Source of the DNA: Obelidium mucronatum
Taxonomy: Eukaryota > Chytridiomycota > Chytridiomycetes > Chytridiales > Chytriomycetaceae
NCBI GenBank assembly: GCA_025765595.1
Contig: JAIVFH010000024.1
Location: 248,001-312,000, forward strand
DNA: 64,000 nt
Reading direction: 5' to 3'
Each line of letters starts with the position of its first letter. The stretch's first letter is position 1. The notes under the pieces were generated by a model, which saw only the letters and a program-made list of their open reading frames with translations, was not told the origin of the DNA and ran no database searches. Below are positions 22,942-54,997 of this stretch, in pieces. A program made the translations under genes and the position numbers.

Positions 22942-23111
22942 CAAAATTGTTCTTTGTCTTATTTTTTTTTTAAACTCTCTGCGAAAAAAAGTTAAGAGGC
23001 AGTTAGTGGCCTCTTTTCCACATCTTCAACCAAAGAATTGATTAATCGCGTTCCTGTGATTATTGAAGTTGTCATGGCAATGAATTTGCGACCTATGCAG
23101 TCCCAAAAAAG

Positions 23112-32019: not shown

Positions 32020-32530
32020 TAGCCCTTTGCTGTGACTTTCTTCACCAGTGGAGCTGTTCCCATAGTGTTGAAGACCTCAGGATTGCGGGCGTTGGCAAGA
32101 GTGGAAGGGTCACCAATGTTGAGTGACGCATTTTCCTGGATGTTTTCTTTAAACCAGGAAAAATGCCCGTAAACTTGAAAGCAGATCAGATCCATTCAGA
32201 CTTAAACAAGTTTTGAGCTTCCAGAGTAATTGGATCCAGTTCTTCCCCAAGGGATGCAAGGTTACAGATCCGAAAGCTATGTTTCTGTTGGAATAGGCAT
32301 ACAATGGTCTGTTTTAAATTTTGCAAAAATCACCTCATTCACAGGCTGCAAGAAATATGTCGCGTTTGCAGGTAGGACAAAGCCGTTGATGCCAAGCTTG
32401 AAGAGAGTCACGGTCTTGTGGACCCCAAGATTCTCAAACAATAGAACAGGTTTGCAGGGTACTGCAGCCAATAGGACTTGAATTCCCTTTGCTGTAGAAA
32501 TGCCAGGCTGGGTGTTGATAACTGCTGTTG
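32020..32530 (-). pseudogene. Pogo/Tc1-superfamily DDE transposase fragment, decayed
   Basis: The minus strand encodes PCKPVLLFENLGVHKTVT and then NGFVLPANATYFLQPVNE followed by VIFAKFK, matching the second catalytic segment of pogo/CENP-B-type transposases (LLLDNHSSH...LPPHTTHLLQPLD). The catalytic Asp is Glu here (FEN for xDN), and stops follow, so it is dead. Further down, PSTLANARNPEVFNTMGTAPL resembles the family's C-terminal end. It abuts the truncated 3' end of the copia element at about 32570. Confidence 0.6.
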
Positions 32531-32571
32531 CAAATCATTCCTGAAGAGACATGAAACCGGACAAAACCACA

Positions 32572-35500: not shown

Positions 35501-35655
35501 GTACCAGATGTTCGGCTACACGGAGTAAAGGAGACAAAATAATCCGTGGTCTTCAAGCAAGTCTTTCGGCAACCTCCATCAATGACAAAGCCAAACTTGG
35601 TGTTTGTTGGTTGAAACTGGTACAGGAGTTTTGGATGTGTTGTTGTATAATGTCC
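32572..35655 (-). mobile_element. Ty1/copia retrotransposon, pol portion (protease, integrase, RT), decayed
   Basis: Read on the minus strand from 35655 downward: an aspartic-protease-like FVIDGGCRKTCL (DGG for DSG), an integrase zinc segment and core (CDSCESCHTNKQPF, GEQLGFDIAEIKLPHLGKY), then the reverse-transcriptase block of copia type: VSTAYLYGDINKPIYMKQPPG and LLKGLYGLKQVGRIWYKKL, and beyond a frameshift VDNLCFFGDQALIDEGVISL, where copia has YVDDL. RNase H and the 3' LTR are missing; the sequence ends against the pogo fragment at about 32570. Stops and frameshifts make it inactive. The 5' half continues at 40989 and 46623, because two DNA elements split it. Confidence 0.82.
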
Positions 35656-35850
35656 AATTGGGGATGCGGGCCGGACCTCGCGAGTCGCGATACCAGTCAC
35701 GAGCCGCTCACGGGCCGCTTGCAACCTGCTGACAAGCCGCTAGCGGGCCGCTTGCAACCTGTGCCACGGCCTGTTGGCAGGCCGCTCTGTACCTTTTTAT
35801 GTGGGGCGCTAGCCACTGGTTCACAGGCCGCTACCCCCAACCGTCACTAA
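35656..35850 (+). repeat. A-type terminal repeat of Element 1
   Basis: CCGC-rich terminus made of imperfect units such as GAGCCGCTCACGGGCCGCTT and GCAACCTG(C/T)(T/G), ending near CAGGCCGCTACCCCCAACCG. Related copies occur inverted at 46440-46614, direct at 46841-47020, partial at 52673-52790 and degenerate at 55543-55670. Confidence 0.8.
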
Positions 35851-35963
35851 AACTCAAGAATAAGTCCCAAAAAATGTATCAAATAAGGAAGACAGCTATT
35901 TATTATCAATAAATAATTAAATAAGTAAATAAGTAATTAAATAAGTAAATAAGTACACATTGC

Positions 35964-37226
35964 TCAACCCAGTGCTTGCAAAACCGATTCCCGTATCTTC
36001 CGATTGCGATCTGTTGCATCGCAATTAATGTTGAAGGTAACTCCCCGCTTCTCCACCACAGCGCTTCCCACAAACCTGTCCTGGTTGCGCTTCACCGCCC
36101 AACTCGCTGTTCCCATTCCATCTGCCAGAATCAGCGAGATTCTCCGCTTTCTAGTATCTGCCTCCGCCGCCAACTCCGCTACCTCCACAAATCGTCGCTC
36201 CCCTGAATGCCACATCCTGGTCCCATGTTTTTCATGCTTGAACATGGAAACAATCGCCTCCCCATGCACCGCTGGGATCACCAAGTTTCGATCCGGTAGG
36301 TACAGTGCTGGCCATACCGCGGGCGGTTCCGCGTCTTCCTCATCCACCACAACACTGAAGTTGATCCCGAACGTTGAATTTTTGCTGTCCAGGTGGAACT
36401 TGAAGCACGCAAGAAACGAGGATGTGAAGATCCCAAAGCTGGGATTGCATGTGGTTGCAACTTCCTATTGGTCTCGTTTTCGCAATTAGAAGGTGAGCGC
36501 TAAACTATAACAAACACATACCTTTGTAATGTTGGCCACCATCTCAAACGCCTCCCGATGTACCAGAGACTCCACACCGCCAGTGAGGTAAGCGACCAGC
36601 GGTTGAAGGCCTTCAAAGTGGGGCAGCAGCTCTGGCTTGATGTTCTCCTTTCCAAACACCGCCAGCCCGTTCGTTACCTTTTTGGCATGTTCTTTCACCT
36701 TGACAGACGCTACATCCGCCGGGTAGTGTGGGTCCTTGATGCCGTCTGCAACTCCAGTCCAGGAGCACAGGTTGATGACGCGCATGTTGCCGCGTGTCTT
36801 GACCTTCGGCTGCGAGCGTCGAAATATTGCGGCAAGATCGCGGATGTGCGGCATGGCTACCTTGAGTATATAGGGCGGCAGCTTGATTCTAACAGCAATC
36901 TCAACCTTGTAGCAATGCTTGACCGCAACAAAACCAAAAACCCCCTCACCTCCCCGCAACAAGCTCCTCAACTCTGTCTGTGTTTAGACTGTACACAAAC
37001 TCCTGTCCCTTGGTTCTGTCATCCAGCACTCGCAGCTCTGCAGGTTTTGTTGCTGAAAATGTTTAACAGCAACCACAGCAAAAATAAAAGTATTGGCCCA
37101 CCAACCTATAACATCAGCGCGGCTCAGTCCCTGCTCAGACATGTGCTTCTGGCGTTTCAGCATCTGGTGTGCAGTGGTGGATGCTGACTTTTTGACGCAT
37201 TTTCGTTTGTTACGCGTTTTGTCCAT
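35964..37226 (-). CDS. Unknown Element 1 gene A, four exons, intact
   Basis: Not recognised. ATG 37226 (MDKTRNKRKCVKK, very basic). An intron joins ADVI to ATKPAELRVLDDRTKGQEF; the next joins VAGR to IKLPPYILKVAMPH; the last (GTATGT...CAATAG) joins ANITK to EVATTCNPSFGIFTSSFL. The C-terminal exon contains VVVDEEDAEPPAVWPALYLP and RRISLILADGMGTASWAV and ends VLQALG with TAG/TGA-type stop at 35964. About 330 residues, soluble, no membrane segment, no catalytic motif known to me. It reads outward toward the A-type end. Its 3' part is present in three further places (46.3, 47.1 and 53.0 kb), so it is the most conserved gene of the family and a candidate for a mobilisation function. That role is inference. 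Confidence 0.65.
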
Positions 37227-37381
37227 TGCATTAATAGATAAATAAATAAATAATGTAGTTAACTCAACAATATCAAGGTAATTTATTGAATCAAACTATT
37301 CCTTGCATATCAACAGCTACAAAGCTGTAATAAAGTATTCTCTGGTTTGTTGTGTTCTCCCTCATCACTTTGACTTGAAGA

Positions 37382-38215
37382 ATGCGACGCTCAACAAGAC
37401 AACGCCAAGCTGCCGCTGCTGCCTCAACCAAACATACAACAGCGCCAGCTTCTCCAATTAACCCAATCTCTGCAATTAGAGCGTGTCCTGCTGCTCCTGC
37501 TGAGATCCTTGCCGCTCTGGATCAAATTGAGCAAGTGCTCTTGGATTGCAGCTGCATCTACACCCTGCCAGACTGCAACCTGGATCTAAAGCGATTGGAA
37601 TCCCTCCTGCTTGCCAATCCTGGCAAGATTCTATTCCTGCCATCCTCCAGTATTCCTGCTGATCACTTGACGTCAGGGGAGTATTTCCCCACAGCCTGCT
37701 ACCATAACGATCAACCACACAAAAGGAGCTTTATTTCTGGGTTTTTTGATCCATTGGAGCAATGGGAGCTGCAGCATGCGGCGTTTTCTGCTCCAATCAT
37801 GTTGTGTCAACCCATCAAGCACTACCGCCACTCCCCCCTCCATCAGGACTATGGAACAGCCATCAACGTCCTTCTCCAATCACCCACCAATCAGCAGCTC
37901 TTCAAGCTGTGGGTGGTGCTTGTCCCCAGCGACCCTACAGCCATCATCCCTACCCTTAATCCCCTGTCTTTCGCTCAAGCCATGGCTTTGGAGGTGGGTC
38001 CTTCCTGCACATACACAGCCAGGATCTGCTTTGTAAAGAGGCCTGGCGATCTTTCTGTCATTCCTTCTGGATACCCGCATGCTGTGATCACAGTCTCAAC
38101 AACCAAGGACGCGACATCCATCATGGGCGGCGCACATGTAATCTTTCCAAAAGACTACCTGTATGTATACAAATACAATTGCGCCAGCAAGCACATGTGT
38201 TTTCTTTATTTTTAA
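37382..38215 (+). CDS. JmjC-like Fe(II)/2-oxoglutarate dioxygenase carried by Element 1
   Basis: Single ORF, 277 residues, ATG 37382 (MRRSTRQRQAAAAAS, basic). The metal-binding triad is visible as HQD (His154, Asp156) in RHSPLHQDYGTAINVLLQ and His233 in RPGDLSVIPSGYPHAV. KLWVVLVPSD follows the first strand as in KDM2-type JmjC domains, and IMGGAHVIF follows the second, like their GGNFLH. This order (HxD, KxW, GD-x-x-xIPSG-x-x-HAV, GG) is that of JHDM1/KDM2 JmjC oxygenases, though shorter and without CXXC, PHD or F-box. Histone, DNA or protein hydroxylation/demethylation is possible; the substrate is unknown. It is divergent from gene A (156 bp apart). Base composition is like its neighbours. 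Confidence 0.72.
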   Translation: MRRSTRQRQAAAAASTKHTTAPASPINPISAIRACPAAPAEILAALDQIEQVLLDCSCIYTLPDCNLDLKRLESLLLANPGKILFLPSSSIPADHLTSGEYFPTACYHNDQPHKRSFISGFFDPLEQWELQHAAFSAPIMLCQPIKHYRHSPLHQDYGTAINVLLQSPTNQQLFKLWVVLVPSDPTAIIPTLNPLSFAQAMALEVGPSCTYTARICFVKRPGDLSVIPSGYPHAVITVSTTKDATSIMGGAHVIFPKDYLYVYKYNCASKHMCFLYF

Positions 38216-38218
38216 TAT

Positions 38219-38833
38219 TATGTCCCCATTAACACAATTGCGAGCCAATCCTCAGGAAATCGTGGATCCAACCAAGGCACCGTGGCCAAGCCGGTGAGCC
38301 AAACCAGGATCGCGTCGACAAGCACCAAAATGGAAGCAGGGTCATCAGACTAAAGCAACAGAACAAACCAAGGCAATCACGGCCTCACAGATGGTCCTGT
38401 CCAATGGAGTTAACTCGAAGAAACCAAAGGCAACAATTCAGCTTGAATAGGGACAGCGTCAAGGAGATCAACAGATGTGGAGTACATCAATGCTGGACCA
38501 AGCAACACTAAGCCAAAAGCGCGGATACGGCTCAATCTGTCGAAAGGATTATACAAATCAAAAGAACAGATGAAGATGGAATCAAAAGAACAAGTGAAGA
38601 TGGAACCTGTTGGCGCTGGATGGAATCATGGGGATGACAGATTTGGTGGATCTCCTGGACCAACACCAAAAGCGGAGGACGACGATGATGAAATACTGTC
38701 GTATTCGAGCTCAAACGTGGGTTCGGATCGGGGACCCGATCGGATGGTTTTGGTTGATGGGGAACTCATGGAAGGGCTCCCAATTGTTGATGGGGAATTG
38801 TACACGCCTGGGCGATACAGGGCAGACTTCTGA
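38219..38833 (+). pseudogene. Element 1 gene C, low-complexity, frame broken
   Basis: Not recognised. Starts MSPLTQLRANPQEIVDPTKA two bases after the JmjC stop region, but frames change (RLKQQNKPRQSRPHRWSCP, then MEYINAGPSNTKPKA, then KEQMKMESKEQVKMEP) before GDDRFGGSPGPTPKAEDDDD and a C-terminus ending YRADF. A homologous copy lies inverted at 44075-44742 in Element 2, beginning MSPLTRLRANPREIVDPTKA. Either several small introns or frameshifts separate the segments; I could not find a splice set that fits. Charged and disordered in character. Confidence 0.45.
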
Positions 38834-38956
38834 GAGTATATGTGGGTTATTTATTCCCTTCCTTCCCTACTCTTCTTTTGTCTTTTCACGAATAAAAAAA
38901 CTTTGGGTTGTTTTTAAAAGACTTTGGTTTATTTTTAAAAATAAAGAAGATTTTCA

Positions 38957-39268
38957 ATGTCCGAACATCCATTAGCCCCAGGAGACGCCAGCACAGTCGC
39001 AGGTCTGCTGGACCATATCTGCAACAGTCAGGACTGCAGACACTTCATCAATGTTCCGTTTTCCCTCCCCTCAGTTGCAGACGGGACCTGGATTAGCGGC
39101 TACCAATGGATAACCAAGCCGCGCGCGGATGGCTCCGTTAACCCCAAGTCACTCAAGTACCTTTGGAAGACAATCCACGGGCACGTGTTTTACCCAAACA
39201 TCTCAAAATTGGCGCCCAACGCATGCACAGACGCAATGCAAGAGCTGGTGCCACATATAATCATGTAA
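38957..39268 (+). CDS. Small unknown Element 1 protein D, 103 aa
   Basis: ORF MSEHPLAPGDASTVAGLLDH through NSQDCRHFINVPFSLPSVAD, WISGYQWITKP, SVNPKSLKYLWKTIH to VPHIIM. No known domain. The middle (DGSVNPKSLKYLWKTIH) is also present in Element 2 (minus, about 44200), which supports it as a real element gene. Confidence 0.5.
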   Translation: MSEHPLAPGDASTVAGLLDHICNSQDCRHFINVPFSLPSVADGTWISGYQWITKPRADGSVNPKSLKYLWKTIHGHVFYPNISKLAPNACTDAMQELVPHIIM

Positions 39269-39311
39269 TGTTTATTCATCATTCTACACTATCCTACCCA
39301 CTATATCTAAC

Positions 39312-39488
39312 ATGCCTTATTTAAGTATGTTGAATACTAACTTTGCGCCAGTGGTGTACAACTATCACCTGAAAGAAAATGACGAACAGCTAATGACTGT
39401 TGCACACCTGGACTTCCCCATTGTCTTAACAACACTGAAAAAAACTGTCGAGTCTTTTCAGTTTCTTACAGACGAAGACCTCCGATGA
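39312..39488 (+). CDS. Very short Element 1 ORF E, 58 aa
   Basis: ATG 39312 to TGA 39488: MPYLSMLNTNFAPVVYNYHL then KENDEQLMTV and TVESFQFLTDEDLR. Unrecognised. It sits between ORFs D and F in the same direction with short gaps, so it may be an exon of either or a separate small protein. Kept because composition is coding-like. Confidence 0.35.
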   Translation: MPYLSMLNTNFAPVVYNYHLKENDEQLMTVAHLDFPIVLTTLKKTVESFQFLTDEDLR

Positions 39489-39560
39489 CGAAGAAAAGGA
39501 AAGTGAGTATGAAGTTGTAATTGTTGGTCCAACGATTGCAGGTATGTTTCTTTATTTTTA

Positions 39561-40887
39561 ATGTCCAAGACTAAGCGCCAAGCATCGCCAACACCAGCCA
39601 AACAGCCCGCGCGCAAAACCTACAGCAAGACGCCCAGCTCTGCTAAACGCAATGAGACCGCTATGGAAAGGCGCAGAAGACGTAAGCGTTGTTGAAATGG
39701 GGTTTCTTCAATTTCAATTATTTAAATCACACAACAGGGTCTGTAAGTTCACCAGACAAACGGGGAATCCAATCTGAAAGTGACGCAGACAATGGCGCTG
39801 ATGACGATGATGTCAATGCATCCTCAAGCGAGTCTGATAGACAGGACGCTCGCAGTGATGACGAAGACGAAGATGACAACAAAGACGGACAAGTGTCAAG
39901 CCAGCCGCAGTCGTCTGGCTCCATCCGCAGCTGCATTAGAGATACGCAGCCTTTTCCTTTGGATTACGATGATGGTGAGAGATTGGTTTTTATTGCTTGG
40001 CTAACAACATTCAGCAGATGAAGCCAAGGGAAGTCCAGCACCAGAACCGCCGAAAGCCAAAATCGGAGTCTTTTTTGGTTTCGATGTGAATGTATTTTGT
40101 AATTAACACTTTGTCGAACAACTACTTCTCCCCAATTTCTCAGAACAGTATAGTTAGGCCCGGCTCACATTCTGGACAGCAAGTGACTTTGCACCCCAAC
40201 CCCCCTTGTAGACCTCCCGTCTACTTCCTCTTTTTCTTGGGCACCTTCCACTCTACTCTGTAGTTCAGAAGTGCAGGTCTCCTATTAGGGCTCCTGAACT
40301 ACCACCAACTTCATTTTCGGTTCCACCAGGGTTTGAACCGGGAACCTGCAGCACATCGGCATCAGGTCTTAACCACCTGAGCCATTCGATTCGGAGTCAC
40401 TCTTATTGCGGACAAGTCGACGAAGCTGCTTGCTGAAATTCCGTATGTGCTGGATCGGAAAGACCGCTATGTTTTAGGTAAGTGGATCCTTTCTTCCGCT
40501 GTTGTTTCCTCAAATCCTCAGAGTATTAACTCTGTTTTAGGTCCAAGTGACATCATCAAGGTCCTCTCAAGTCACGCAGCATTCCTGGCAAGGGGTATCC
40601 GCTGCGACTACGTGGAGCTTGTTGACGAAGATGGCTTTGGACGATCGTCATTTGTAATTCAATACACAGCTGTCTTTGGACAGATTGACATCAAAGCCGG
40701 AAGCAGTGAGTGTGTTGTGATTTGTTTGAGCAGGGAAGGGGTACCAACTGCATTTTTATTGATAGTCTCGCAACCAGTGTTTGCTTGCCCTGCCGTTGTG
40801 ACCCCACTGTCGTCGCAATTGTATTCAACTCCAATGCTTCCAAGCTCTGGCTCTGGCAGGCGACGCGGCTGGCTTTCCACTGGTTAG
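39561..40887 (+). CDS. Unknown Element 1 gene F, nuclear-type acidic/basic protein, several exons
   Basis: ATG 39561 gives a basic start (MSKTKRQASPTPAKQPARKT), spliced (RRRR to SVSSPDKRG) to an Asp/Ser-rich acidic region (SDADNGADDDDVNASSSESD), then to DEAKGSPAPEPPKAKIGVFF. An intron that seems to hold a SINE-like insert (about 40110-40395) precedes STKLLAEIPYVLDRKDRYVL, a further intron, and PSDIIKVLSSHAAFLARGI, RCDYVELVDEDGFGRSSFVIQ. The reading frame runs into the right terminal repeat. Domain unknown. The charged, disordered N-terminus suggests a chromatin- or DNA-associated protein, but this is a guess from composition. Confidence 0.4.
40240..40392 (-). repeat. tRNA-derived SINE-like unit
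   Basis: On the minus strand from about 40390: TGGCTCAGGTGGTTAAGACC (A-box type TRGCNNAGYNGG) and, about 30 bases on, GGTTCCCGGTTCAAACCCTG with the B-box GGTTCAAACCC. The flanks do not form a 7-bp acceptor stem, so this is not a working tRNA gene but a pol III promoter head of a SINE. The body downstream on the minus strand (toward 40240) has no homology I recognise. Confidence 0.6.
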
Positions 40888-40980
40888 CGGCTTGCACGCG
40901 GGTGGGTCGCCCACAGGTCGCGCGCGGCCTGTTAAGCGGCCCGTTAGCGGCTCGCGAGGTCCGGCTTGCTATGGGGACAC
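40860..40980 (-). repeat. B-type terminal repeat of Element 1
   Basis: Reads inward on the minus strand as GTGTCCCCATAGCAAGCCGG then ACCTCGCGAGCCGCTAACGG. The same end is at 42815 (plus) in Element 2 and at 54997 (minus). Confidence 0.8.
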
Positions 40981-40988
40981 ATAATGTC

Positions 40989-42814: not shown

Positions 42815-43170
42815 GTGTCCCCATAGCCAGCCGGACCTCGTGAGCCGCTAACGGGCCGCTTAGCAGGCCGCTCGCGACATGTGGGCAACCCACGTGCTAG
42901 CCGCTAACCAGTGGAAAGTTAGTCGGGTCACAGTTAGTTCACAGGCCGCAAGCCAGTTGACAGCCAGTGGAGAGCCAGTTGAAAGCTAGTCCTTACTTGA
43001 TTTCAAAAAAGGTAAGAAACAATGAGCAGAAAAGTTTTAAAACCATAACATATGTATTTGAAGTAATAAACAAAATCCAAAGTAACCAACAAATAAACAA
43101 AAACAAAAAAGGATGCGCGAAGTTGAAATTAACAAAATATTGAAGAAACAATAAATAAAAAAACCCCCAA

Positions 43171-43482
43171 TCAGCGCTTTGCCTTCTTGCTTGCGCTTCC
43201 TTCCTGAAGCGGCTCCCGCCAATACGCATTCTTGACATGTTGGTTGTTTGCAAAGGCCCGAACCACTGTGTACGTCTCTGGCTTGCGCTGATGGCGGCTT
43301 TGCCCAGCCTTGTAGAAGTGCAGGTGGTTGAATGCTTGGATGAAGCTGCCAGAATTGTGGTTTTTGTCAGGAACACCAGTATGGAACGACAGCTTTTTGG
43401 TCCATTCAGCAAAATGACGTTTTGCTAATTCAAAAGTAAACGTCATTCCGCTGTATGTTGCAAAGAAGCACTTGTACTTCAA
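43171..43482 (-). pseudogene. Element gene H (B-end gene), copy 1
   Basis: Minus ORF MKYKCFFATYSGMTFTFELA through SGSFIQAFNHLHFYKAGQS to EGSASKKAKR. Unrecognised. The same 3' half occurs near the other B-type end at 54480-54659 (SGSFIQVFHHLHFYKAGQS, ending ASKKAKR). It reads outward toward the B end, as gene A does toward the A end. No homologue is present near the B end of Element 1. It may be an exon of a longer gene. Confidence 0.45.
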
Positions 43483-43575
43483 GAAGATCTATAGCAAAGT
43501 CAGAAAACGCAGAAATCCAGTAGCTCTCGTCACAACCAAGACACTGCTTCCCAAGTTTTTCAAGAAATCAGTGCC

Positions 43576-44072
43576 TTGATGAATCAGTCAATATCCAACG
43601 CCAAGCTGCCGAGCAAGTTGCTGCCAACCATAGTATTACCGCTGAGGCTTCACGCGGAATCTATTGGCAAATCGACAAGCATCCTGATTGAGTCCACGGC
43701 AAGCAATTGTTCTCAGACCATGATGAGCTTGTGTTTGTCGCCTTTTTGGAGGCCCGATCTTTGTCCCACAGCCCATTGCGCCAAGTGGATTTTTTGCAAT
43801 TAGTACGCCAAAAGTACCTTGAAATCCCCCGACCAGGAGATTGGAATCCAAACGGATGGCTAAATGGTTTCTTCCGCCGCCACCAAAAGCGAATTACCCA
43901 ACGAGCCGTCAAAGCTCTAACATCCTCCTGCATCAAACCAGCTACAGAAATTGAGGTGAAAGTCTGGGTAAAGCTGTTCAAGGATTGGATGGACGAGAAT
44001 CTTGTCAATGTTGATGAAATGCGCATCCAACTTGAAAACAAAGGGTTCCTTTCTCATGAGCACGTCCATTAA
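43576..44072 (+). pseudogene. Pogo/Tc5-type transposase, N-terminal part, decayed
   Basis: Segments in two frames give AAEQVAANHSITAEASRGIY (psq-like helix-turn-helix), then SDHDELVFVAFLEARSLSHS, PGDWNPNGWLNGFFRRHQKR (the Tc5/CENP-B second HTH, xxGWLxxFxxRH) and VKVWVKLFKDWMDENLVNVD, where NVDE is the start of the DDE core. An in-frame TGA sits between the two HTH parts and the ORF ends before the rest of the catalytic core. It is dead as read. Pogo-type enzymes normally give TA duplications, so it is unlikely to have moved the 8-bp elements. Confidence 0.6.
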
Positions 44073-44074
44073 CG

Positions 44075-44742
44075 GCCCAAATGTCCACCAAGGTGAAGGT
44101 GGTCCTACGGCCAGCTATATTCCCTTTGGGTGTTCGGGTGGTTGACATTTTGGTCATTCCGACCAAATATGGGTGGATTGTCTTCCAAAGGTACTTGAGT
44201 GACTTGGGGCTGACGGAGCCATCCACCGCTTTTGGTGTTGGTCCAGGAGATCCACCAAATCTGTCATCCCCATGATTCCATCCAGCGCCAACAGGTTCCA
44301 TCTTCACCTGTTCTTCTGATTCCATCTTCATCTGTTCTTTTGATTCCATCTTCATCTGTTCTTTTGCTTTGTATAATCCTTTTGACAGATTGAGCCGCTT
44401 TTGGCTTAGTGTTGCTTGGTCCAGCATTGATGGAGTCCACATCTGTTGATCTCCTTGACGCTGTCACTCGATCAATCCAAATTGTTGCCTTTGGTTTCTT
44501 CGAGTTAACCCAGTTGGACAGGACCACCTGCGAGACCATGATTGCCTTGGTTTGTTCTGCTGCTTTAGTCTGATGACCCTGCTTCCATTTTGGTGCTTGT
44601 TGACGCAATCCTGGTTTGGCAGACCGGCTCGGCCCTGTGCCTTGGTTGGATCCACGATTTCCCGAGGATTGGCTCGCAATCGTGTTAATGGGGACATAAT
44701 ATTAAAAATAAATAACAAGAGAAGAAAACACACATACCACAA
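44075..44742 (-). pseudogene. Copies of Element genes C and D (inverted relative to Element 1)
   Basis: Minus strand from 44742: MSPLTRLRANPREIVDPTKA, QNGSRVIRLKQQNKPRQSW, then SKEQMKMES repeats, GDDRFGGSPGPTPKAVDGS and VSPKSLKYLWKTIH. In Element 1 the last block belongs to gene D, so genes C and D are fused here by a deletion. Frames are broken as in Element 1. Confidence 0.55.
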
Positions 44743-44827
44743 TCAGCAATCAATGAATCATGCTTGCTGTTTCAGCAGGGAGGCCAACAAAGATTAATTA
44801 ATGCAGCGATAGGGGGTTTGTTGTACA

Positions 44828-45348
44828 CACGTACTATAGCGAGCGGCACTCCCAATTCAGACCCCGATTCGGCCTCCTAGTCGGGAAACGATTCGGAGTC
44901 CGACTAGGGTCCTAATAGGGCCCTATTAGGAGCAGTCCCGAATAGGGGCCGAATCGGAATGGCCAATAGGCCAATTGGCGCTCCTAGATGTACTCTTAAC
45001 CTGTTTCCAGTAGGAGATTTCTATTTTTTCCTTTTATTTGAAGGGGTTTTCTTTCTCCTAGTCGGGCTTCCGAATAGGACATAGCATTAAATGAGTAAAT
45101 GCACATTAACTACTGAAAACCTTTTAAAAGATGGCTATCAGAACTCCTATTAAGAGCTAACAAATGCTATAAGGACAGGTCCAATTGGCTCATTTGCGAT
45201 TAGGAGCGCCACTAGGACCCCTAATAGCGCCCTATTAGGCTCCTAATTGGTCCAGCTCCTAATAGGGTCCGATTCGGGCTCCTAGTAGGACTCCTAGTCG
45301 GGCCCTAATCGGACCCCGAATCGCGCGTGCCGCTCGGACCCCGGGCTG
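44828..45348. mobile_element. 521-bp non-autonomous element (type C) with 8-bp duplication GTTGTACA
   Basis: GTTGTACA occurs at 44820-44827 and again at 45349-45356. The left end is CACGTACTATAGCGAGCGGC, the right end in reverse CAGCCCGGGGTCCGAGCGGC: unlike outermost bases, then shared GAGCGGCAC. Both arms (about 150 bp each) are built of short palindrome-like units such as CCTAATAGGGCCCTATTAGG, CGATTCGG and CTCCTAGTCGG, inverted to each other around an AT-rich centre. There is no ORF. Similar arms occur at 52390-52672 and a related striped region at 48910-49158. Confidence 0.85.
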
Positions 45349-45431
45349 GTTGTACAGGTGCAGTTTGACATTATTTTCATCCCACCAAAAGAGACTTCAC
45401 AAAAAAATGGCAAAAATGCGCAGTTGGTAGT

Positions 45432-45615
45432 GATGAATGGGCTTTCTCATTCTCCTTCTTTGCAGAGACGCAGATGATGAATGGGCTTTCTCATTCTCTC
45501 AGCCCTGCGGAGCAAGTTTGTTGTTTGATTCAGTGAATGGGCTTTCTTGTTCTTCCGCTTCCAAACACTTCTATGCAGATGACGAATGGGCTTTCTCACT
45601 CTCTCTGTACTGTGT
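45432..45615 (+). repeat. Dispersed 22-bp unit GATGAATGGGCTTTCTCATT, four copies
   Basis: Copies begin near 45432, 45476, 45533 and 45581. More copies are at 53809, 53853, 54101 and 54252 (plus) and, inverted, at about 47321 and 47361. Spacing is irregular and the sequence between copies differs. In one frame they read DDEWAFSFS, but no long ORF is maintained. Confidence 0.7.
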
Positions 45616-45617
45616 TT

Positions 45618-46343
45618 GAAAAGGTAGCGAACGGGCTGGCGGTGTTTGGAAAGGAGAACATCAAGCCAGAGCTGCTGCCCCACTTTGAGGGCCTTCAGCC
45701 ACTGGTCGCTTACCTCACTGGCGTTGTGGAGTCTCTGGTACATCGGGAGGCGTTTGAGATGGTGGCCAACATTACAAAGGTATGTGTTTGTTATAGTTTA
45801 GCGCTCCCCTTCTAAATGCGAAAACGAGACCAATAGGAAGTTGCAACCACATGCAATCCCAGCTTTGGGATCTTCACATCCTCGTTTCTTGTGTGCTCAA
45901 ACAGCGGGGACTTCAAGTTCCACCTGGACAGCAAAAATTCAACGTTCGGGATCAACTTCAGTGTTGTGGTGGATGAGGAAGACGCGGAACCGCCCGCAGT
46001 ATGGCCAGCACTGTACCTACCAGGTTGAAACGTGGTGATCCCAGCGGTGCATGCGGAGGCGATTGTTTCCATGTTCAAGCATGAAAAACATGGGACCAGG
46101 ATGTGGCATTCAGGGGAGCAACGATTTGTGGAGGTAGCGGCGGAGGCAGATACTAGAAAGCGGAGAATCTCGCTGATTCTGGCAGATGGAATGGGAACAG
46201 CGAGTTGGGCGGTGAAGCGCAACCAGGACAGGTTTGTGGGAAGCGCTGTGGTGGAGAAGCGGGGAGTTACCTTCAACATTAATCACAATGCCACAGATCG
46301 CAATCAGAAGATACGGGGATTGGTTTTGCAAGCTTTAGGTTGA
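45618..46343 (+). pseudogene. Copy of Element gene A, last two exons, broken
   Basis: Plus strand: VANGLAVFGKENIKPELLPH through FEMVANITK, the same intron (GTATGT...CAATAG), then the C-terminal exon to VLQALG. It differs from the intact copy by a 12-nt in-frame insertion (CSNSGD in place of a shorter segment) and by a TGA after YLPG, and it lacks exons 1-2. The insertion may be the ancestral state. Confidence 0.7.
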
Positions 46344-46622
46344 GCAATGTGCATTTATTTACTCTCCATTTATTTAAGTATTTATTAATAATAAACAGCT
46401 GTTTTCCTTATTTATACATTTTTTGTGATTTCTTCTTGAGTTTTAGGTAGCGGCTTGTGAACCAGTGGCATGCGGCTTGCACCATATAAAAAGGTACAGA
46501 GAGGCCTACAAGTCACAAGTGGCCTGCTAGCGGCAGCAGGTCGCAAGCGGCCCGTGAGCGGCTCGTGCGCGACCGGTAACGCGACTTGCGAGGTCCAGCC
46601 GGCATCCCCAATTGACACCTTC

Positions 46623-46840: not shown

Positions 46841-47190
46841 CAATTGGGGATGCGGGCCAGACCTTGCGAGTCGCAATACCAGTCGTGTTGCGAGCCGCAA
46901 ACGAGCCGCTTGCGACCTGTGTTGCGGCCTGTTGGCAGGCTGCTTGGTACCTTTTTCTGTGGGGAATGAGCCGCCGCAAGCCGCTGGCTCACAGGCCACT
47001 ACTCCCCAACCATCACTAAAACTCATCACAAAAAATGTAAAAAATAAGGAAAACAGCTGTTTATTGTTAATAAATAATTAAATAAATGGATAGTAATAAA
47101 TTCACATTGCTCAACCCAGAGTTTGCAAAACTGATTCCTGTATCTTCCGATTGCAATCTGTGGCATAGCAATTGATGTTGAAGGTAAGAG
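46841..47190 (+). repeat. Third A-type end with gene A 3' tail
   Basis: Starts CAATTGGGGATGCGGGCCAG like Element 1's left end, followed by the CCGC-type repeats to about 47020 and, from 47104, the last about 85 bp of gene A (minus). It then passes into unrelated sequence, so it is a truncated copy. The 8 bases before it (TTGTTTGT) have no matching duplication at any B-type end in the window. Confidence 0.65.
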
Positions 47191-47309
47191 AGTTGAATAA
47201 AAACAAGAAAAATACAAAGAACGTGTTTTCAGTGGCAGACTGGAGAGACATTGTGTTGGATAATACCCCAGAACTCAAGACAGCAACACCAGAGCAGCGC
47301 CACGACAGA

Positions 47310-47425
47310 GAGAACAAGAAAGCCCATTCATCATCTGTTAGTTGTGGAATGGGAGAATGAGAAAGCCCATTCATCACCACAGACTGCTCAGAGTGGTTTT
47401 GTATTTTTTGTTTAATTTTTTTTGA
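47310..47425 (-). repeat. Inverted copy of the GATGAATGGGC repeat region
   Basis: About 100 bp, including two inverse copies of the 22-bp unit and CACAGACTGCTCAGAGTGG, match in reverse the stretch 53745-53875. This shows the unit travels with longer flanks in at least this pair. Confidence 0.6.
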
Positions 47426-47550
47426 CAAGAGCGGTGGGAGAAGATAAACAAACATGGAGTTTACCACACTCTCATCCTGCAAGCAACACCTACATGAAGA
47501 AATAGATTTGCAACTTGGCATTATCGAAAAACAGTTCTGTGATATATTTG

Positions 47551-47895
47551 CACTAGAGACAAATGCTCAGTCACTTTGCTTCTTCACAGTGCAGATTGCA
47601 ACTCCAGAGAAATTAGGACTTTATGGGATTATAACGCTTTTAAGCAGAAAATTTCTTTTTAGAGATGGTTGCGGAATTTCTATTTTGATTGCCAGAAAAT
47701 TGAAAGAGGCTGTCCAAATTTAAAATCTTGGGGGATGACCAGATGCTGCTCACTCACTTCATATTTGCCTTCTTAGCTTCCATTATTTGTGCGAAATCAA
47801 TTAGAGGAAAGCTTATTCTGGTTTTCAGGTGGACAACCATGACAACAGCCGGAAAATTAACTAAGTAAAACATGATTACTCAGGTCAAAAAACCC
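47551..47895 (+). repeat. Direct repeat R, copy 1
   Basis: Shares long blocks with 50341-50793, for example TGCTCAGTCACTTTGCTTC, CTCCAGAGAAATTAGG, AAATCAATTAGAGGAAAGCT and CAGGTCAAAAAACCCTTCT. Copy 2 has extra internal sequence. A short ORF (47454-47723) overlaps copy 1 but is not kept in copy 2 and is not called. Confidence 0.7.
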
Positions 47896-48841
47896 TTCTG
47901 ATGTCTAGGGACCAATCTTGCATTGAACTTTGACATGTGCTTCCCAACATCGCTGTAAGAAAAGATGCAATCTTCTTTGTCAAAGTAGCTCGTGTAGGTT
48001 TTTGGAAAGAGCTAGTATAATAAAATAAAGCATTATTAGAAGAAATAACTTGAAGTGATACTAAAATAAAAACTTACTCAGTATTTCCAAAGTTGGGGAA
48101 TTCCTTTGACAGGGTTGCAGCAGCAAGAGTTTTGGTCATTGGTGGCTCTCGATCCTGCGTCAGGTAAGAAAAGCAGATATCAACTTCTTTCACTTGACTA
48201 ATGAACTTGTCTTGGGTGCCGGTGCGTCCTTTGGCTTTGGCAACAACTTCAGCAACAGACGTGGGGACTTGGCAGCGTTGCTTGGAAGAGATAGAACCTG
48301 GCTTTTCAAACCCTGATGTCACTGGAGAGTTAACCAACGGAGAAGATGCAAATGGATCAAAGATGGTTCCTAAATGAACACCAAAAATACTTAGAGAGCT
48401 GTTTAAACAAAATGGTAACCTACCAGAATCAGTATAGGCAACATCAAAGTACTCTGGGCTTTGTGGATTAAAAACAATGTCCACCAAAACCTTTGGCAGC
48501 AGCCAAAGCATCAGCAAGCAAAACTTATAATGTATTTGATTGTTAAAAATGCACAATAAAAACGACACCATCTTTTTCACCTCTGGTTCTTCTTCTTCAT
48601 CTCTTCTCAAAAGGTCGATGGCACGTCGCTTCTTTTTGGGATGAGCCTGCACTTCTTTTTCTAAACCAATTGGATCATCAGATCCCAAGAGTGGAAATGA
48701 AATTTTAGACTTGATAGCTCTTCTACGCTTGTTTTCTGCAGCAGAGCCTGGAAGCTGGCTGATAGGAGGAATACTCCTGCTGACACCAATGCCACCAAGA
48801 TTGCCAAGAAGGCTACTGCTCGTGCCGCAAGACAACAACAT
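47880..48841 (-). CDS. Unknown gene in the repeat nest, about four to five exons
   Basis: Not recognised. ATG 48841 (MLLSCGTSSSLLGNLGGIGV), a basic stretch (HPKKKRRAIDLLRRDEEEEPE, NLS-like), an intron, PQSPEYFDVAYTDSG, an intron, then IFDPFASSPLVNSPVTSGF, VAEVVAKAKGRTGTQDKFIS, PPMTKTLAAATLSKEFPNFG, and a last exon LFPKTYTSYFDKEDCIFSYS with DVGKHMSKFNARLV, ending FLT with TGA at 47880 inside repeat R. Splice sites fit (for example before TIFDPF). The product would be a soluble nuclear-type protein of about 220-250 residues. It may be an element cargo gene or a captured host gene; I cannot tell. Confidence 0.45.
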
Positions 48842-48909
48842 GGTACTTGTTGTTTGAAACTTTTCTAGCTAAAAGATTAAAAAATAATAAAAAGGGTTAG
48901 ATTATTAGA

Positions 48910-49158
48910 ACATTAAAGGGCTGTAATTGTGCTCCTAATCGCGCTCCAAATTGGCTCATAATAGCGCTCCTAATAGCACTCCTAATCGCGCTCCGAATCG
49001 TTTCCTAATCGCGCTCCAAATCGTGCTCCGAATAGTTTCCTAATCGCGCTCCGAATTGGCTCCTAATTGTGCTCCAAATTGGATCGCGAATCGGATCGCA
49101 AATCGGATCGCAAATCGGATCGCGAATCGGATCGCGAATCGGATCGCGAATCGGAGCC
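48910..49158. repeat. Striped CTCCTAATCGCG region with 12-bp minisatellite
   Basis: From 48930 short units (GCTCCTAATCGCGCTCC, GCTCCGAATCG) recur with small changes, similar to type C arms. From 49081 to 49158 a 12-bp unit GGATCGCGAATC or GGATCGCAAATC repeats about six times in perfect register. The minus translation is a meaningless RSDS repeat. Confidence 0.8.
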
Positions 49159-49269
49159 AAATATCGCATCACAGCAAAATGAATAAGACTCACCATATAT
49201 GTATTTTGCCAGCGCCGTTATGTGTTCCTCATCATTTTCGGAACGATTTCCATCTATACACGATCCCAC

Positions 49270-49711
49270 TGAAGCAGAGGTCCTCCAGTGCTGTTAAATC
49301 CTGGTTTGTGTCTTTGATCCACTTGTACACTTCTGGCTGGGATTTGTTATTCAGCCCAGGGATGTGGACTGTACATTTGGTTTTATCCAAAAACACTAGC
49401 TTCAATGTGTTGTTGGAGTTGATGTATCTGTTGTGGTTGGGAGTGGTGTGTCAGCGATCACCTGTCAAACACAAACAAATAAACCCAAACCTCAACATCT
49501 TTTCCAGTGCCTCAGTGGCCTCCTCTACAAGCTCTTTAGGAGACCCTTTGGTTTCCAATACTCTTTGGTGCAGGTCAGGACAGAGCTCTTTGGTGACTTC
49601 TCGCAGATCACTCCACAAGATGAAGATGGTCTTCTTGTCTAAGAACTGGATAGGGTTGTTGCTGACTCTGAGGAATGGCAGTGTACCTGGCAGTGGTGGT
49701 GGTGATAGCAT
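49270..49711 (-). CDS. Unknown element gene X, paired with the KDZ-type transposase
   Basis: Minus exons: MLSPPPLPGTLPFLRVSNNP, DKKTIFILWSDLREVTKELC, SPKELVEEATEALEKML, an intron, then KLVFLDKTKCTVHIPGLNN and SQPEVYKWIKDTNQDLTALE toward the end at about 49270. Unrecognised family; soluble. It starts head-to-head with the transposase, the two starts only about 25 bp apart. Its C-terminal part is duplicated at 19269-19366, next to the OTU-nuclease gene, which marks it as a mobile-element protein. Confidence 0.5.
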
Positions 49712-50340
49712 GTGGAAAAAACTTTGCCGAAAAAAATGAAAATCCCTGCCTCACATGTCAAGATGGGAGCTCAGCTGGCAGAACAGTTCCCAGCCTTCCA
49801 AGCTGAGTTTTCAATCTACGGCAGTTTTGAAAAGACTTACAACAAGACACTCCGTTTGCAGGATTTCATTCAGCTTATTGCTACTTCTTTTGGCGTTCCC
49901 ATCCTGGCAGCCAAACAAACAGCAGAGGCTGTGTTTGATTCAAGAATTCACGAAACAATTAATGTACCTATTCTCCTGTCAGCTCCATTTACATATTGCA
50001 TCAAGTGTCAGAGCCATCTAAAGATTGGGAGATGGCAAGAAGTCACAATCTTGGATGCAGATTCAGCTAAATTGGGTCTTCTGTACAAATCCAGCTGTGT
50101 GAATTTGAGCTGCAGTATTCAGTTGTATGATGTTGATTCATGTCAGAGATTACCAATGGAAACAGCACCATAGAACACTACCCAATAATACAATCAGAAA
50201 GCAAAAAGTCGTTGGAATCAATTCTATCGGAGCACCACAAATCAGTCGCCATTAGGAGAGTTTGCGACAGACTGTTCCGCTATTTAGATGCAAAATGTAT
50301 ACTCTGCAGAATGCATACCATTCTGCATTTCCTTCTGTTT

Positions 50341-50793
50341 CACTAGAGACATACGCTCAGTCGCTTTGCTTCTTCGCAGTGCAGGATGCGACTCCAGAGA
50401 AATTAGGGCTTTAAGGGATTGCAACACTTGTAAGCAGAAAATTTTTTTTTAGGGGTGTTTGAAAGAAGTCAGAATTTTTATTTTTATTGCCAGAAAATTA
50501 AAAGAGGCTGTCTTCTTTGTTTCAAAATTTTAAATCTTGGGGATAACCAGAAGACGTCGAACAAGCCAAAAGCAGACAGATTCTCATCATGAGTCTGCCT
50601 ACAATCCTTTTAATCTGGCCTTGAGCCACTGCTTATTTTGCCATCTTCAAGAGCTTCCATTATTTGTGTTAGTTGATGAAATCAATTAGAGGAAAGCTTA
50701 TTCTCCTTTTCAGATGGACAAGCATGACATGACAGCAGCTATAAAATTAAATAAGTAAAACATGATTGCTCAGGTCAAAAAACCCTTCTTGAG
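50341..50793 (+). repeat. Direct repeat R, copy 2
   Basis: See 47551-47895. This copy has about 100 extra bases (AGCCAAAAGCAGACAGATTC region) and merges at its right end with the inverted repeat D copy. Confidence 0.7.
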
Positions 50794-51036
50794 ACTTTTG
50801 TGTTGTCTGGAGTTACTTTGGTTTCCAAGTCAATTTTCCTTTAATTGCCGGGAAGCAACAGCTTGAAACATGTCCAATTTCTAAAAATAGAACTATTAAA
50901 AACCCCCTTCTTAACCCTCAAACCATTTGAACAAAGTAGGAACATCTTTTCTATAAATAGAACTACAAGGAATTGGCCTCCAACCCCCTCAAACTCCCCC
51001 TTAACATGACAGGTTGACAAGCAACCTGCAATCTGA
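50735..51036 (-). repeat. Dispersed repeat D, inverted copy inside the KDZ gene
   Basis: In reverse it reads GCAGGTTGCTTGTCAACCTG, TCATGTTAAGGGGGAGTTTG and so on, matching 55923-56222 over about 300 bp with scattered differences. No ORF. It interrupts the transposase. Confidence 0.8.
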
Positions 51037-52183
51037 TACTGAGCAGTATTCAGGGATTCCCTCAGCTGCATCATCATCTATTTTCAAGTGGGCTTATTAC
51101 TTGTACCAGATGCTCCTATTGCAAGAGTACATTCAGGATCCTGCTGTTTCAGAGGCGCTTCAAGCAAGCAATCAAGTGTCTGATAATGTAGAAGATTTGC
51201 GGTTGGCAATGAAGGAATATGTGGAGTGGATGAATGCGCACTTTGCAGTAAAATGGAAGCATTCATGTGGAGAATGTCATTGTTGATAGCAAAGGCTAGG
51301 AGTATAGTGCGGCTGTGATGGATGGAAAAGTGATGGGGCACCTGCTGTGCAGAGTGATTGGATGCAATTTGGACATCATTGGGATCAATACAAAATTCTG
51401 TATCAATCATGCAGGATCGAAGGGGAAATGCATCATTTCAGGATGTGCGAATCAAAAACAAGGACGTGAGAACTCTTTTGATTACCAACCGCTGTCGTGC
51501 AAGGAAGCAGAACATATGGAGGCCGTGCGAAAATTCTTCTCAGAACCATCAACAACAAGTGAGAAAGCTGCAAAGAAGTATGGAGGAAAGACACGAGTGT
51601 CAGTTGGGCATGTGAAGGATGATGAAAGGAATTATGAGGAGTTTGGGTTCTGTTACAGCCCATTTGACAGATTCCTGCCAGGGGTGTTCCTGGTTGTGTG
51701 GAGCTGTGGGCACATTATGGACATTGGGAAGATGTACTTGTTTGAGTCCAACAAGTTTATCACAGGATTTCTTTGTCAAACATTCATGAGGCTCGATGAG
51801 TATCCTACATTCATGTTTTATGACAAAGCATGTGTTTTTGTCAGGACTTTGAAAAACGGCGCTCAGCAAAACAAGCTGCTCCATAAGTAAGGATGTATTT
51901 GCTGTGATAGAATCTAACTTCTGTGCTTAGGATGCTATACCAAAAAATCATCTGGGTTGTTGACAGATTCCACTTCAGAAACCATAGTCGTCAAGACAGA
52001 TTCTGCATGGAAAATTGTGACGCTGGTCTTTTGCTAGGCTATACCAAGGAAACAAGCCTTTATTCAACACATCAGCAGCAGAACAGTGTGCTGGATGGTT
52101 TGAAAAAATGGGACACATTTTGCAATATTTGGACCCTCTTCAGGCAGACTTTTTTTGTTCAGCATGGTGGACATGAGAAATGA

Positions 52184-52389
52184 GCAACTTAGCAAATGTT
52201 AGTAGCCAGAGGGTTATTTTTAAAAATTGATAAATTTTTATGATTAATTTTAACTATAATTCCATAAAATTCTGAAATTTTAATTTTGTATTTTTGCAAT
52301 TTTTTTGAACTTTTTCAGATGGTTTGTAATTTTTGGGAATTTTTTTTTAGAGTGTTTTGCAGTTGACAGTTATTTTCATAGGATGTTAA
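52184..52389. other. AT-rich spacer, nothing recognised
   Basis: Sequence after the transposase stop, very rich in T/A with ATTTTTAATTTT-type runs. No ORF, repeat end or RNA gene. Confidence 0.5.
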
Positions 52390-52672
52390 TCCTAGTCGGT
52401 CGTCCTAATCGGACTGAGTAGCTCCTAATAGGACAATGCTCAAATTGCAGGAAAAAGTTGTTTCCTCCTAATGAGAAGTGATTAGGACTCCATTAGGAGG
52501 CGGCTAGGAGCGCCAATAGCCCTATTGGCCATTCCGAACTGACCCCGATTCGGGGTTGCTCCTATTCGGAGCCGAATCAAACCCTAGTTGAGCTCTGAAT
52601 CGTTTCCCGAATCGGAGTCCGAATCGGAGTCTGAATTGCACGTGGCGCTCGCTATAGTACGTGTTGACGAGC
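52390..52672 (-). repeat. Second type C arm-like element
   Basis: Right end reads GTGGCGCTCGCTATAGTACGTG, the reverse of the 44828 left end, with the same striped CCTAATAGGA/CGAATCGGAG units inward. The left end and a duplication are not clear, so it may be half of a type C element. It abuts a truncated A-type end. Confidence 0.65.
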
Positions 52673-53096
52673 CGCAAACAAGCCGCTTGGGACCTGTGCC
52701 ATGGCCTGTGAGCAGGCCGCTCTGTATCTTTTTATGTGGGAACGAGCCACAAGCCACTGGTTCACAGGCCGCTACCCCCCAACCATCACTAAAACTCAAG
52801 AATAAGTCACAAAAAATGTATAAAATAAGGAAAATAGCTGTTTATTATTAATAAATAATTAAATAAATGGATAGTAAATAAATGCACAATGCTCAACCCA
52901 AAGCTTGCAAAACTGATTCCCGTATCTTCCGATTGCAATCTGTGGCATTGCGATTGATGCTGAAGGTAACCCCCCACGTCTCCACCACAGCGCTTTCTGC
53001 AAACTTTCCTGGTTATTCTTAACTGCCCCACTGCCCAACTCGCTGTTCCCATTCCATCTGCCAGAATCAGCCGGATTCTCCGCTTTCTAGTATCTG
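52673..53096 (+). repeat. Fourth A-type end (5' truncated) with gene A 3' tail
   Basis: CCGC-type repeats from GACGAGCCGCAAACAAGCCG to about 52790, then from 52890 to 53096 the reverse of the gene A last exon (GDGMGTASWAV-type region to QALG, with changes and a lost frame). Lacks the outermost CAATTGGGG. Confidence 0.65.
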
Positions 53097-53804
53097 TTGC
53101 AAAAAGGCTCAAAGTAAAACAAGGAAACAAGAAGATGGAAAGGATGAAGCAGGCAAAAGTGGGATCAAAGAGAAAGTGATATCCCAAGTACAGAAGCGCA
53201 TGCAATAAAGGAAAACCCTCTGACAGAATTAAGGGATTTTTTCTTGCCAATACATTGGACCTACAGCGTTGTGTTGACTGTGACTGGCTGCTTTGCCCCA
53301 CCAGGCTGAACGCAAACCTATTAAAACTGAATTAGAAAGAAGACACGCATTCTGGACTGCAACAAACAAGAAAAATAAAAACAAACAACCAACATGACCT
53401 TCATAGATATAGCAAGAGCTGCAGTTGGGCTGGCCAACGAGTTGCAGAAGATTGGTGCAGGATTTTGTAAGGAAAGAAAAGAAAAAAACAAAGGAAAAGA
53501 GGAAAATTAAAACTGTCTACACAATCAATTAGAAAGGTAGTAAACGTTGTTTTTACAACTTGAACGCTTTGGAAACCACTGTCTTTTCATATTCCCTGAC
53601 TGGAATTGTAAAAACCAATTCATAAAATCACAGAAGACCAAACTAAACATATAAACCATAACTGCCTTTTAAAATAACAAGCTGCAAAGATCTTTCTTGA
53701 TGAAGTTGTTGCCTGCTGGATGAGAGTGTTGTTTGTTTTTCATTTCCCACCGCTCCTGTCAAAAAAAATTAAACAAAAAATACAAAACCACTCTGAGCAG
53801 TCTG
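53097..53804. other. No confident gene; one 38-codon ORF
   Basis: 700 bp without a recognised feature. A short ORF at 53395 (MTFIDIARAAVGLANELQKI) is followed by Lys/Glu-rich low complexity and is too short to call. Confidence 0.4.
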
Positions 53805-53808
53805 TGGT

Positions 53809-54275
53809 GATGAATGGGCTTTCTCATTCTCCCATTCCACAATCAACCAGATGATGAATGGGCTTTCTCATTCTCTCTGTTGTGGGGCTGCTCTGGTCTT
53901 GGTGTTTTCAGCCTTGGGGTATCCACACAATGTCCTACCTGCCTGCCACTGAAAACACGCATATTTATATTTTCCTTATTTTTATTCAACTTTCTCTGTA
54001 TGGAATCTGGTGTTAAATTGATGTATTTTGTACCAGTGGTTTGCCGCATTACTTCAGCCACCTCTATTAAAACAGATGCTCAAAATGATGAAAATCAGAT
54101 GATGAAAGGGCTTTCGCTTTCTCTCTGGCTTCTTGTCTGCTGTTCTGTCTGCATGCTGCCGCTATGCCACACACACTCTCTCTCTCTCCTAAATACATCA
54201 ATGCATCAGTTACATAAAAAGACAATGCTTGAATTGCAGATAAAAAGCAGATGATGAAAGAAGGGCTTTCTCTTT
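53809..54275 (+). repeat. GATGAATGGGCTTTCTC repeat region
   Basis: Four copies of the 22-bp unit (53809, 53853, and the diverged GATGATGAAAGGGCTTTC at 54101 and GATGATGAAAGAAGGGC at 54252) in otherwise non-repetitive sequence. Confidence 0.65.
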
Positions 54276-54367
54276 CTCTTTGCTTTTTGTGCTGTTGTCC
54301 CAGTAAGACCTGCCGCTCCAATTTGCTGGAGTATTAATTCAATTCCATTTCTATTTTTTGAATGACA

Positions 54368-54659
54368 GATGGGAGCGTTGCAAAGCAAGTCCCACTATTC
54401 AAGCACAGTTCATTTGTGTTAAATTCAATGGAGCAAAGGTCTGGCTATGGGGACTACCAGTTGCGTTGCAAGCCAATTCCGGCAGCTTCATCCAAGTGTT
54501 CCACCACCTACACTTCTACAAGGCTGGGCAAAGCGGCCATCAGCCCAAGCCAGAGCGTACACAGTGGTTTGGGCCTTTGCAAACAACTAACATGTCAAGA
54601 ATGCGTATTGGCAGGAGCCGCTTCAGGAAGGAAGCGCAAGCAAGAAGGCAAAGCGCTGA
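54368..54659 (+). pseudogene. Element gene H, copy 2
   Basis: Plus strand, in shifting frames: ANSGSFIQVFHHLHFYKAGQ and further, ending GSASKKAKR with TGA at 54657. DNA similarity to 42815-43480 (inverted) continues from the coding part into the B-type end, about 600 bp in all. Confidence 0.5.
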
Positions 54660-54997
54660 TTGGGGGTATTTTTTATTTATTGTTTCTTCAATATTTTGTT
54701 ATTTTTGACTTCGCGCATCCTTGTTGGTACTTTGGATTTTGTTTATTACGTTAAATACATATGTTATGGTTTTAAAACTTTTCTGCTCATTGTTTCTTAC
54801 CTTTTTTGAAATCAAGTAAGGACTAGCTTTCAACTGGCTCTCCACTGGCTGTCAACTGGCTTGCGGCCTGTGAACTAACTGCGACGCGGCTAGCTTTCCA
54901 CTGGTTAGTGGCTAGCACGCGGGTTGCCCACAGGTTGCGAGCAGCCTGCTAAGCGGCCCGTTAGCGGCTTGCGAGGTCCGGCTCGCTATGGGGACAC
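54660..54997 (-). repeat. B-type terminal region, third copy
   Basis: Reverse complement begins GTGTCCCCATAGCGAGCCGG, then ACCTCGCAAGCCGCTAACGG, and follows Element 2's left arm through the GAAATCAAGTAAGGACTAGC region. The next 8 bases outside are CTAATGAA, with no partner found. Confidence 0.7.

Follow-up and report, generated by a model that had tools for sequence, protein, structure and literature searches.

How does a DNA element move when it encodes no known transposase, and what do its genes do for it? This question is raised by a 5326-bp element, referred to as element 1, in a stretch of 64,000 nucleotides of the chytrid Obelidium mucronatum (contig JAIVFH010000024.1, positions 248,001 to 312,000, forward strand). 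The whole stretch is called the window here, and element 1 occupies its positions 35655..40980 on the plus strand (G000:C24:283655-288980). Two genes had been recognized on the element in a first-pass annotation, a four-exon gene of no known family (gene A) and a JmjC-like gene. Our analysis, which was based on six-frame matches in this one genome, led to the reading (probability roughly 0.82) that element 1, a non-autonomous copy, arose by deletion from a ~9.3-kb transposon moved by a protein with CxC5/CxC6 cysteine clusters, and that this transposon regularly carries gene A and the JmjC-like gene as passengers.

The octamer ATAATGTC is present on both sides of element 1 (35647..35654 and 40981..40988, both on the plus strand). 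The exact duplication claimed earlier was therefore confirmed, although the start had been placed one base late, at 35656. The left end (A end, CAATTGGGGATGCGGGCCGGACCTCGCGAG, 35655..35684, plus strand) starts with CAATTGGGGATGCGG and the right end, read inward (B end, GTGTCCCCATAGCAAGCCGGACCTCGCGAG, 40951..40980, minus strand), starts with GTGTCCCCATAGCAA; both then continue with GCCGGACCTCGCGAG, a sequence with 78 exact matches genome-wide compared to 0 for a reversed control. As had been described, this shared inner sequence is preceded by outermost bases that differ between the two ends (CAATTGGGGATG versus GTGTCCCCATAG), with small variation from copy to copy. In alignments, the inverted match between the ends starts ~12 bp inside and the outer 12 bp are not alike. 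Removal of element 1 rejoins copia sequence, in agreement with the annotation: with the copia flanks joined, 35 of 38 genome matches cross the junction (of the remaining three, two are the halves of the window itself and one is a short piece), and all five of the copia copies fetched are contiguous at the insertion point, which represents the empty site. Relative to the window, the fetched copies have A instead of C at the eighth duplicated base, one copy has an extra G, and a gap of 26 alignment columns lies further to the left.

Further copies with the same ends, on which the earlier interpretation depended, are numerous. With up to 3 mismatches allowed, 91 A ends and 71 B ends were found genome-wide, while reversed control patterns gave 0. 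Pairing A ends with B ends in converging orientation within 22 kb yielded 45 pairings, and 18 of these have identical 8-bp flanks. One left end on contig C233 pairs with two right ends, so the 18 represent 17 separate insertions; two more pairings match at 7 of 8 bases. By comparison, none of 1926 pairings of left and right flanks from different contigs had as many as 7 of the 8 bases in common. Together with the contiguity of the copia copies, this null argues against the idea that the duplication around element 1 is a coincidence in copia sequence that was never continuous. In total, 19 insertions of the family have an A end, a B end and duplicated 8-bp flanks, exact in 17 and with one mismatch in 2, and the duplications differ in sequence from site to site. 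The family makes 8-bp duplications, as reported for the KDZ superfamily members Dileera and Zisupton in the available part of PMC12730594 (Kojima 2025), where Kyakuja is reported to be without terminal inverted repeats. The 19 insertions span 2106-9988 bp; nine are 2.1-2.5 kb and four are 9.3 kb or longer. The annotation had asked whether the JmjC gene accompanies every copy, and it does not: among the matches listed, JmjC-like sequence was found in at least 6 of the 19 insertions and the CxC6 domain in at least 5 of 19, so that neither is always present.

Some ends are arranged in repeated form. On contig C208 (G000, 31280-41433), five B ends lie on one strand, 1.9-3.4 kb apart, with identical 30-bp upstream flanks, an array that looks like tandem copies of an insertion plus flank. 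On contig C233 (G000, 17269-26578), two B ends follow one A end and have a 12-bp right flank in common, which suggests a tandem duplication.

The longest copies carry an additional gene. Those on C45 (9370 bp), C52 (9373 bp) and C332 (9311 bp) align with each other at 98.4-99.7% over their length, and a fourth, on C79 (9988 bp), has ends and genes in common with them. Gene A, the JmjC-like gene and a CxC6 domain are present between the same ends in all four. On C52, the additional frame has 727 codons and no stop (introns not removed), and its CxC6 domain is matched at E=3.2e-13 (50.1 bits, Pfam cut-off 27.5). CxC5 and CxC6 are classed by Pfam as KDZ-associated; judged by its domains, the protein thus has an associated cysteine cluster of the KDZ superfamily. 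The genome has 86 CxC6 matches. Two CxC5/CxC6 subfamilies, with ~42-48% identity, both keep VMDG, FYD and NTSAAE, the second retaining VMDGKVMGHLLC, FYDxAC and FNTSAAE, and the D, D and E of these conserved motifs, D375, D536 and E641 when the C52 frame is numbered with its introns, are candidate catalytic residues. The ratio of nonsynonymous to synonymous substitution rates (dN/dS) of the frame is about 0.29 (introns included; Fisher p 1e-5 in one comparison). On the C52 copy, the inward hexamer GCCGCT occurs 6 times in the first 300 bp, 4 times in the last 300 bp and 7 times in the ~8.8 kb between; on element 1 the corresponding counts are 6, 3 and 3. Such repeats would fit putative binding sites beside the ends. 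The CxC5/CxC6 protein is likely to be the transposase of the family, as far as its sequence can tell.

Alignment to the C52 copy shows that element 1 is an internal-deletion derivative of the ~9.3-kb DNA transposon. At the deletion junction (38195..38205), 3.08 kb of the C52 copy is gone, comprising the last ~30% of the JmjC-like gene (its C-terminus) and the entire CxC5/CxC6 gene, and the CxC5/CxC6 protein has no match inside element 1. The absence of a known transposase from the 5.3-kb element, as annotated, is thus explained by this deletion. Element 1 has also lost 385 bp and about 0.88 kb relative to C52. Remnants of further element genes remain at 38447..39488 on the plus strand (open reading frames 38447-38833, 38945-39268 and 39261-39488), with the 385-bp deletion at about 39481. 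A repeat resembling a short interspersed nuclear element has been inserted at 40071..40398 on the minus strand. It has 42 genome matches including itself, several at 97-100%; its start was judged tRNA-like by eye, and ARAGORN found no tRNA in this stretch.

Gene A lies at 35964..37226 on the minus strand. In the spliced model, four exons (37226-37106, 37052-36950, 36888-36522 and 36464-35964), separated by introns of 53, 61 and 57 bp, encode an intact protein of 363 amino acids, 5 fewer than in the C52 version. The protein has no Pfam match and a PDB search gave no meaningful match, so the earlier description of an intact four-exon gene of no known family was accurate. With dN/dS of 0.14-0.21 (Fisher p 2e-10 in one comparison), gene A is, by this measure, under purifying selection. 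We considered gene A as a second oxygenase, as exon 4 has a stretch (FHLDSKN...HGTRMWHSGERRF) that resembles HxD...H...R. This candidate was rejected: there is no Pfam match, the PDB hit (E 1.2) is at chance level, and a relative on C78, ~52% identical, has Tyr in place of the His of the HxD.

The JmjC-like gene (37382..38215, plus strand) was shortened by the deletion. Its protein covers about the first 272-276 of the 385 residues of full-length copies, followed by a short unrelated tail. The JmjC label comes from a degenerate relative on C545, which matches PF02373 with 24.6 bits (cut-off 24, E=3.6e-5; 23.2 bits in a genome-wide search). Eight aligned copies show no variation at residues H157, D159 and H236. 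Over 25 rows, degenerate copies included, and counting at each position the rows that have a letter, these residues are kept in 17 of 19, 19 of 19 and 20 of 22, respectively. We take these residues to be the HxD...H iron-binding triad of JmjC oxygenases, which the protein would accordingly possess. The HxD and a VIPSGxxHAVxT stretch are shared with KDM2/KDM7-type JmjC demethylases, but the detectable similarity is short and the intact element copies have no Pfam match. The local similarity to the JmjC domain of KDM2A was reached by 5 of 2000 shuffles of the C52 protein and 2 of 2000 of the window protein, figures that are not a clean test because the comparison was chosen after the motif had been seen. 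Values of dN/dS were 0.22-0.25 between two clades (Fisher p 1e-12 in one comparison) and 0.15 between the C52 and window copies, indicating that the gene was under purifying selection. The dN/dS values of gene A, the JmjC-like gene and the CxC5/CxC6 frame therefore suggest that these genes were constrained while the family spread. Searches of NCBIfam and PHROGs with the element proteins yielded nothing of use, and no relatives were found in viral contigs.

Several observations weigh against a transposon family moved by a CxC5/CxC6 protein. The evidence is from one genome only, and 25 of the 45 A/B pairings lack a duplication, partly as alternative pairings of one end. Among the four long copies, the CxC5/CxC6 frame is unbroken only on C52 (introns not removed); it has one stop on C79 and matches in pieces on C45 and C332. 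The CxC5 match on C52 (E=1.6e-4, 22.2-23.4 bits) is below the cut-off of 26.9, and the KDZ domain PF18758 was not detected by Pfam in the C52 frame, either whole at E<=1 or in two halves at E<=10. No hAT or other transposase domain is among the Pfam matches of the protein, and thus its domains do not place the family in hAT, though the 8-bp duplication is common to hAT. Because no transposase domain was found, the case for a catalytic role is built on the association and the three motifs. The true KDZ domain is present at 16 loci in the genome, none of them inside the 19 insertions. It could be argued instead that gene A encodes the recombinase, or a partner that transposition requires, and that the CxC5/CxC6 protein plays an accessory part, since gene A is intact in the window, is matched in all four long copies, is under purifying selection and has no known relatives in Pfam or the PDB. 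Yet it is the CxC5/CxC6 domains, not gene A, that Pfam links to transposases, and we regard such a role for gene A as improbable. Insertions on C86, C138 and C144 have exact duplications with only the last ~64 codons of gene A among the matches listed; this does not separate the two explanations, as non-autonomous copies may lack gene A. Still less probable, to the point of being very hard to credit, is that the CxC5/CxC6 genes travel with the copia retrotransposon and do not form a DNA transposon of their own. Element 1 does sit in copia DNA, element 2 (described below) appears by reading to be in the same copia, and the available part of PMC7641404 reports co-localisation of CxC5/CxC6 genes with copia and suggests cooperation with copia in Pleurotus. 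However, the 19 insertions have these ends and 8-bp duplications of differing sequence, and copia copies that lack the element are contiguous at the insertion point.

Other points bear on whether the JmjC-like passenger acts on chromatin, and they are unfavourable to that role. For the intact copies, Pfam gave no match at E<=10 and the PDB no convincing chain. C545, the sole relative to exceed the Pfam threshold, is degenerate, and in the middle of its alignment with the C52 protein it is partly out of register. With degenerate copies counted, another residue takes the place of the first His of the HxD in 2 of 19 rows, and of the distal His in 2 of 22 rows. The frame is in two pieces on C45, dN/dS is higher (0.40-0.61) in closer comparisons of copies, and a single-sequence model of the truncated window protein, with a predicted local distance difference test score (pLDDT) of 32, was used for no fold search. 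That the gene product lacks oxygenase activity, or that its targets are the proteins or RNA of the element itself instead of chromatin, is accordingly a serious possibility, though one we rate somewhat short of even. Against it are the HxD and distal His, invariant in the 8 aligned copies, the dN/dS of 0.22-0.25 between clades, the similarity to the KDM2A domain in only 5 of 2000 shuffles and the JmjC match of the relative. The annotated oxygenase cargo is thus upheld in part: JmjC is supported through the C545 relative, but the intact copies are without a match and the window gene is truncated.

If the CxC5/CxC6 protein is the transposase, as we prefer, the full-length parent would be a ~9.3-kb DNA transposon of the cut-and-paste type that makes 8-bp target duplications. 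Longer copies at other genomic sites encode the zinc-cluster protein, which would attach to the conserved ends and the adjoining inward GCCGCT repeats; any copy with its ends still in place, element 1 among them, would be moved in trans. Movement of end-bearing copies by the protein of longer copies appears well supported at the level of sequence, and trans mobilisation is probably the best reading of element 1. The annotation had proposed mobilisation in trans, for instance by a KDZ enzyme. The proposal agrees with long copies that have the same ends and duplications and encode CxC5/CxC6; the link to KDZ is one of association, PF18758 not having been detected. Gene A and the JmjC-like gene would be standard passengers held by purifying selection. 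The JmjC-like protein would most plausibly be an Fe(II)/2-oxoglutarate oxygenase that acts on chromatin and keeps the element expressed, and it may in this way counter chromatin silencing.

Fungal transposons bearing TET/JBP genes were reportedly described by Iyer in 2014. The available part of PMC12730594 reports TET/JBP genes on Dileera and other fungal KDZ transposons; the words 'JmjC' and 'CxC' are absent from its text. These transposons resemble the family described here in being fungal DNA transposons with an 8-bp duplication and an extra oxygenase gene beside the transposase. They differ in that our oxygenase is JmjC-like, not TET/JBP, that the KDZ domain was not detected in the putative transposase and that the outer 12 bp of one end do not repeat those of the other in inverted form. 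A parallel between the JmjC-like cargo and the TET/JBP elements seems reasonable by analogy. No Tet_JBP domain was matched by Pfam in gene A or the JmjC-like gene, which leaves the family outside the TET/JBP transposons. A TET/JBP reading of the JmjC-like gene was tried and rejected, as similarity to a TET2 fragment was reached by 172 of 2000 shuffles of the C52 protein and 472 of 2000 of the window protein. The Tet_JBP model matches nine places in the genome at E<=1 (one above the cut-off), none within the 19 insertions.

In Pleurotus ostreatus, according to the available part of PMC7641404, the poMSH4 insert of 6,792 bp has a 739-aa frame with a CxC5/CxC6 cluster. Further genomic copies of this insert are reported, with copia nearby and no KDZ transposon near such genes; two Pleurotus strains have 44 and nearly 60 CxC5/CxC6 copies, and the mover was left unsettled. 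The insert is like our family in its CxC5/CxC6 frame, its multiple genomic copies and the nearby copia. In contrast, neither 'TSD' nor 'target site duplication' occurs in the text of the study, and the available part mentions no JmjC gene. The mobile KDZ1-KDZ3 elements of Cryptococcus neoformans (PMC12810828, in its available part) are similar in size (~9-11 kb) and have duplications of 8 bp (KDZ1) or 4-8 bp (KDZ2, KDZ3), but differ in having a KDZ plus CxC1 transposase and terminal inverted repeats of 139-241 bp.

Among the matches listed in a literature search of open-licence papers, no title dealt with DNA transposons that bear a JmjC gene. Two features are possibly new: a JmjC-like gene among the standard cargo of a DNA transposon, and a CxC5/CxC6 element with defined ends and duplications. 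At least two fungal genomes, the present one and that of Pleurotus (PMC7641404, available part), are rich in CxC5/CxC6 genes, and here these genes are bounded by defined ends and 8-bp duplications, whereas the Pleurotus study left open what moves them. A selected JmjC-like gene on a transposon raises a testable question: do such elements bring their own histone demethylases against silencing, as proposed for the DNA-modifying TET/JBP enzymes? More broadly, and quite tentatively, CxC5/CxC6 proteins might be the transposases of a separate DNA-transposon lineage, related to or beside KDZ and with asymmetric ends, in which one family acquired, as part of its regular gene set, a JmjC histone demethylase that clears silencing histone methylation from the element. 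If so, this demethylase would parallel, at the histone level, the TET/JBP genes of other fungal transposons.

Two more elements follow element 1 in the window. Element 2 (42815..46614, minus strand, 3800 bp) belongs to the same family, is inverted and is flanked by ACACCTTT/ACACCTTC, which match at 7 of 8 bases. In window 35001-46700, element 1 lies in copia and element 2 in apparently the same copia; the available part of PMC7641404 reports that CxC5/CxC6 genes are often near copia. Element 3 (46841..54997, plus strand) has an A end and a B end around a broken CxC6 gene of the second subfamily, with a stop before VMDG and a frame change near NTSAAE. Its flanks mismatch (2 of 8), and it is probably rearranged or nested. 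Palindrome-rich stretches of CCTAATAGG-like units are found at 44840-45340 in element 2 and at 52380-52660 in element 3, and are perhaps another short mobile repeat.

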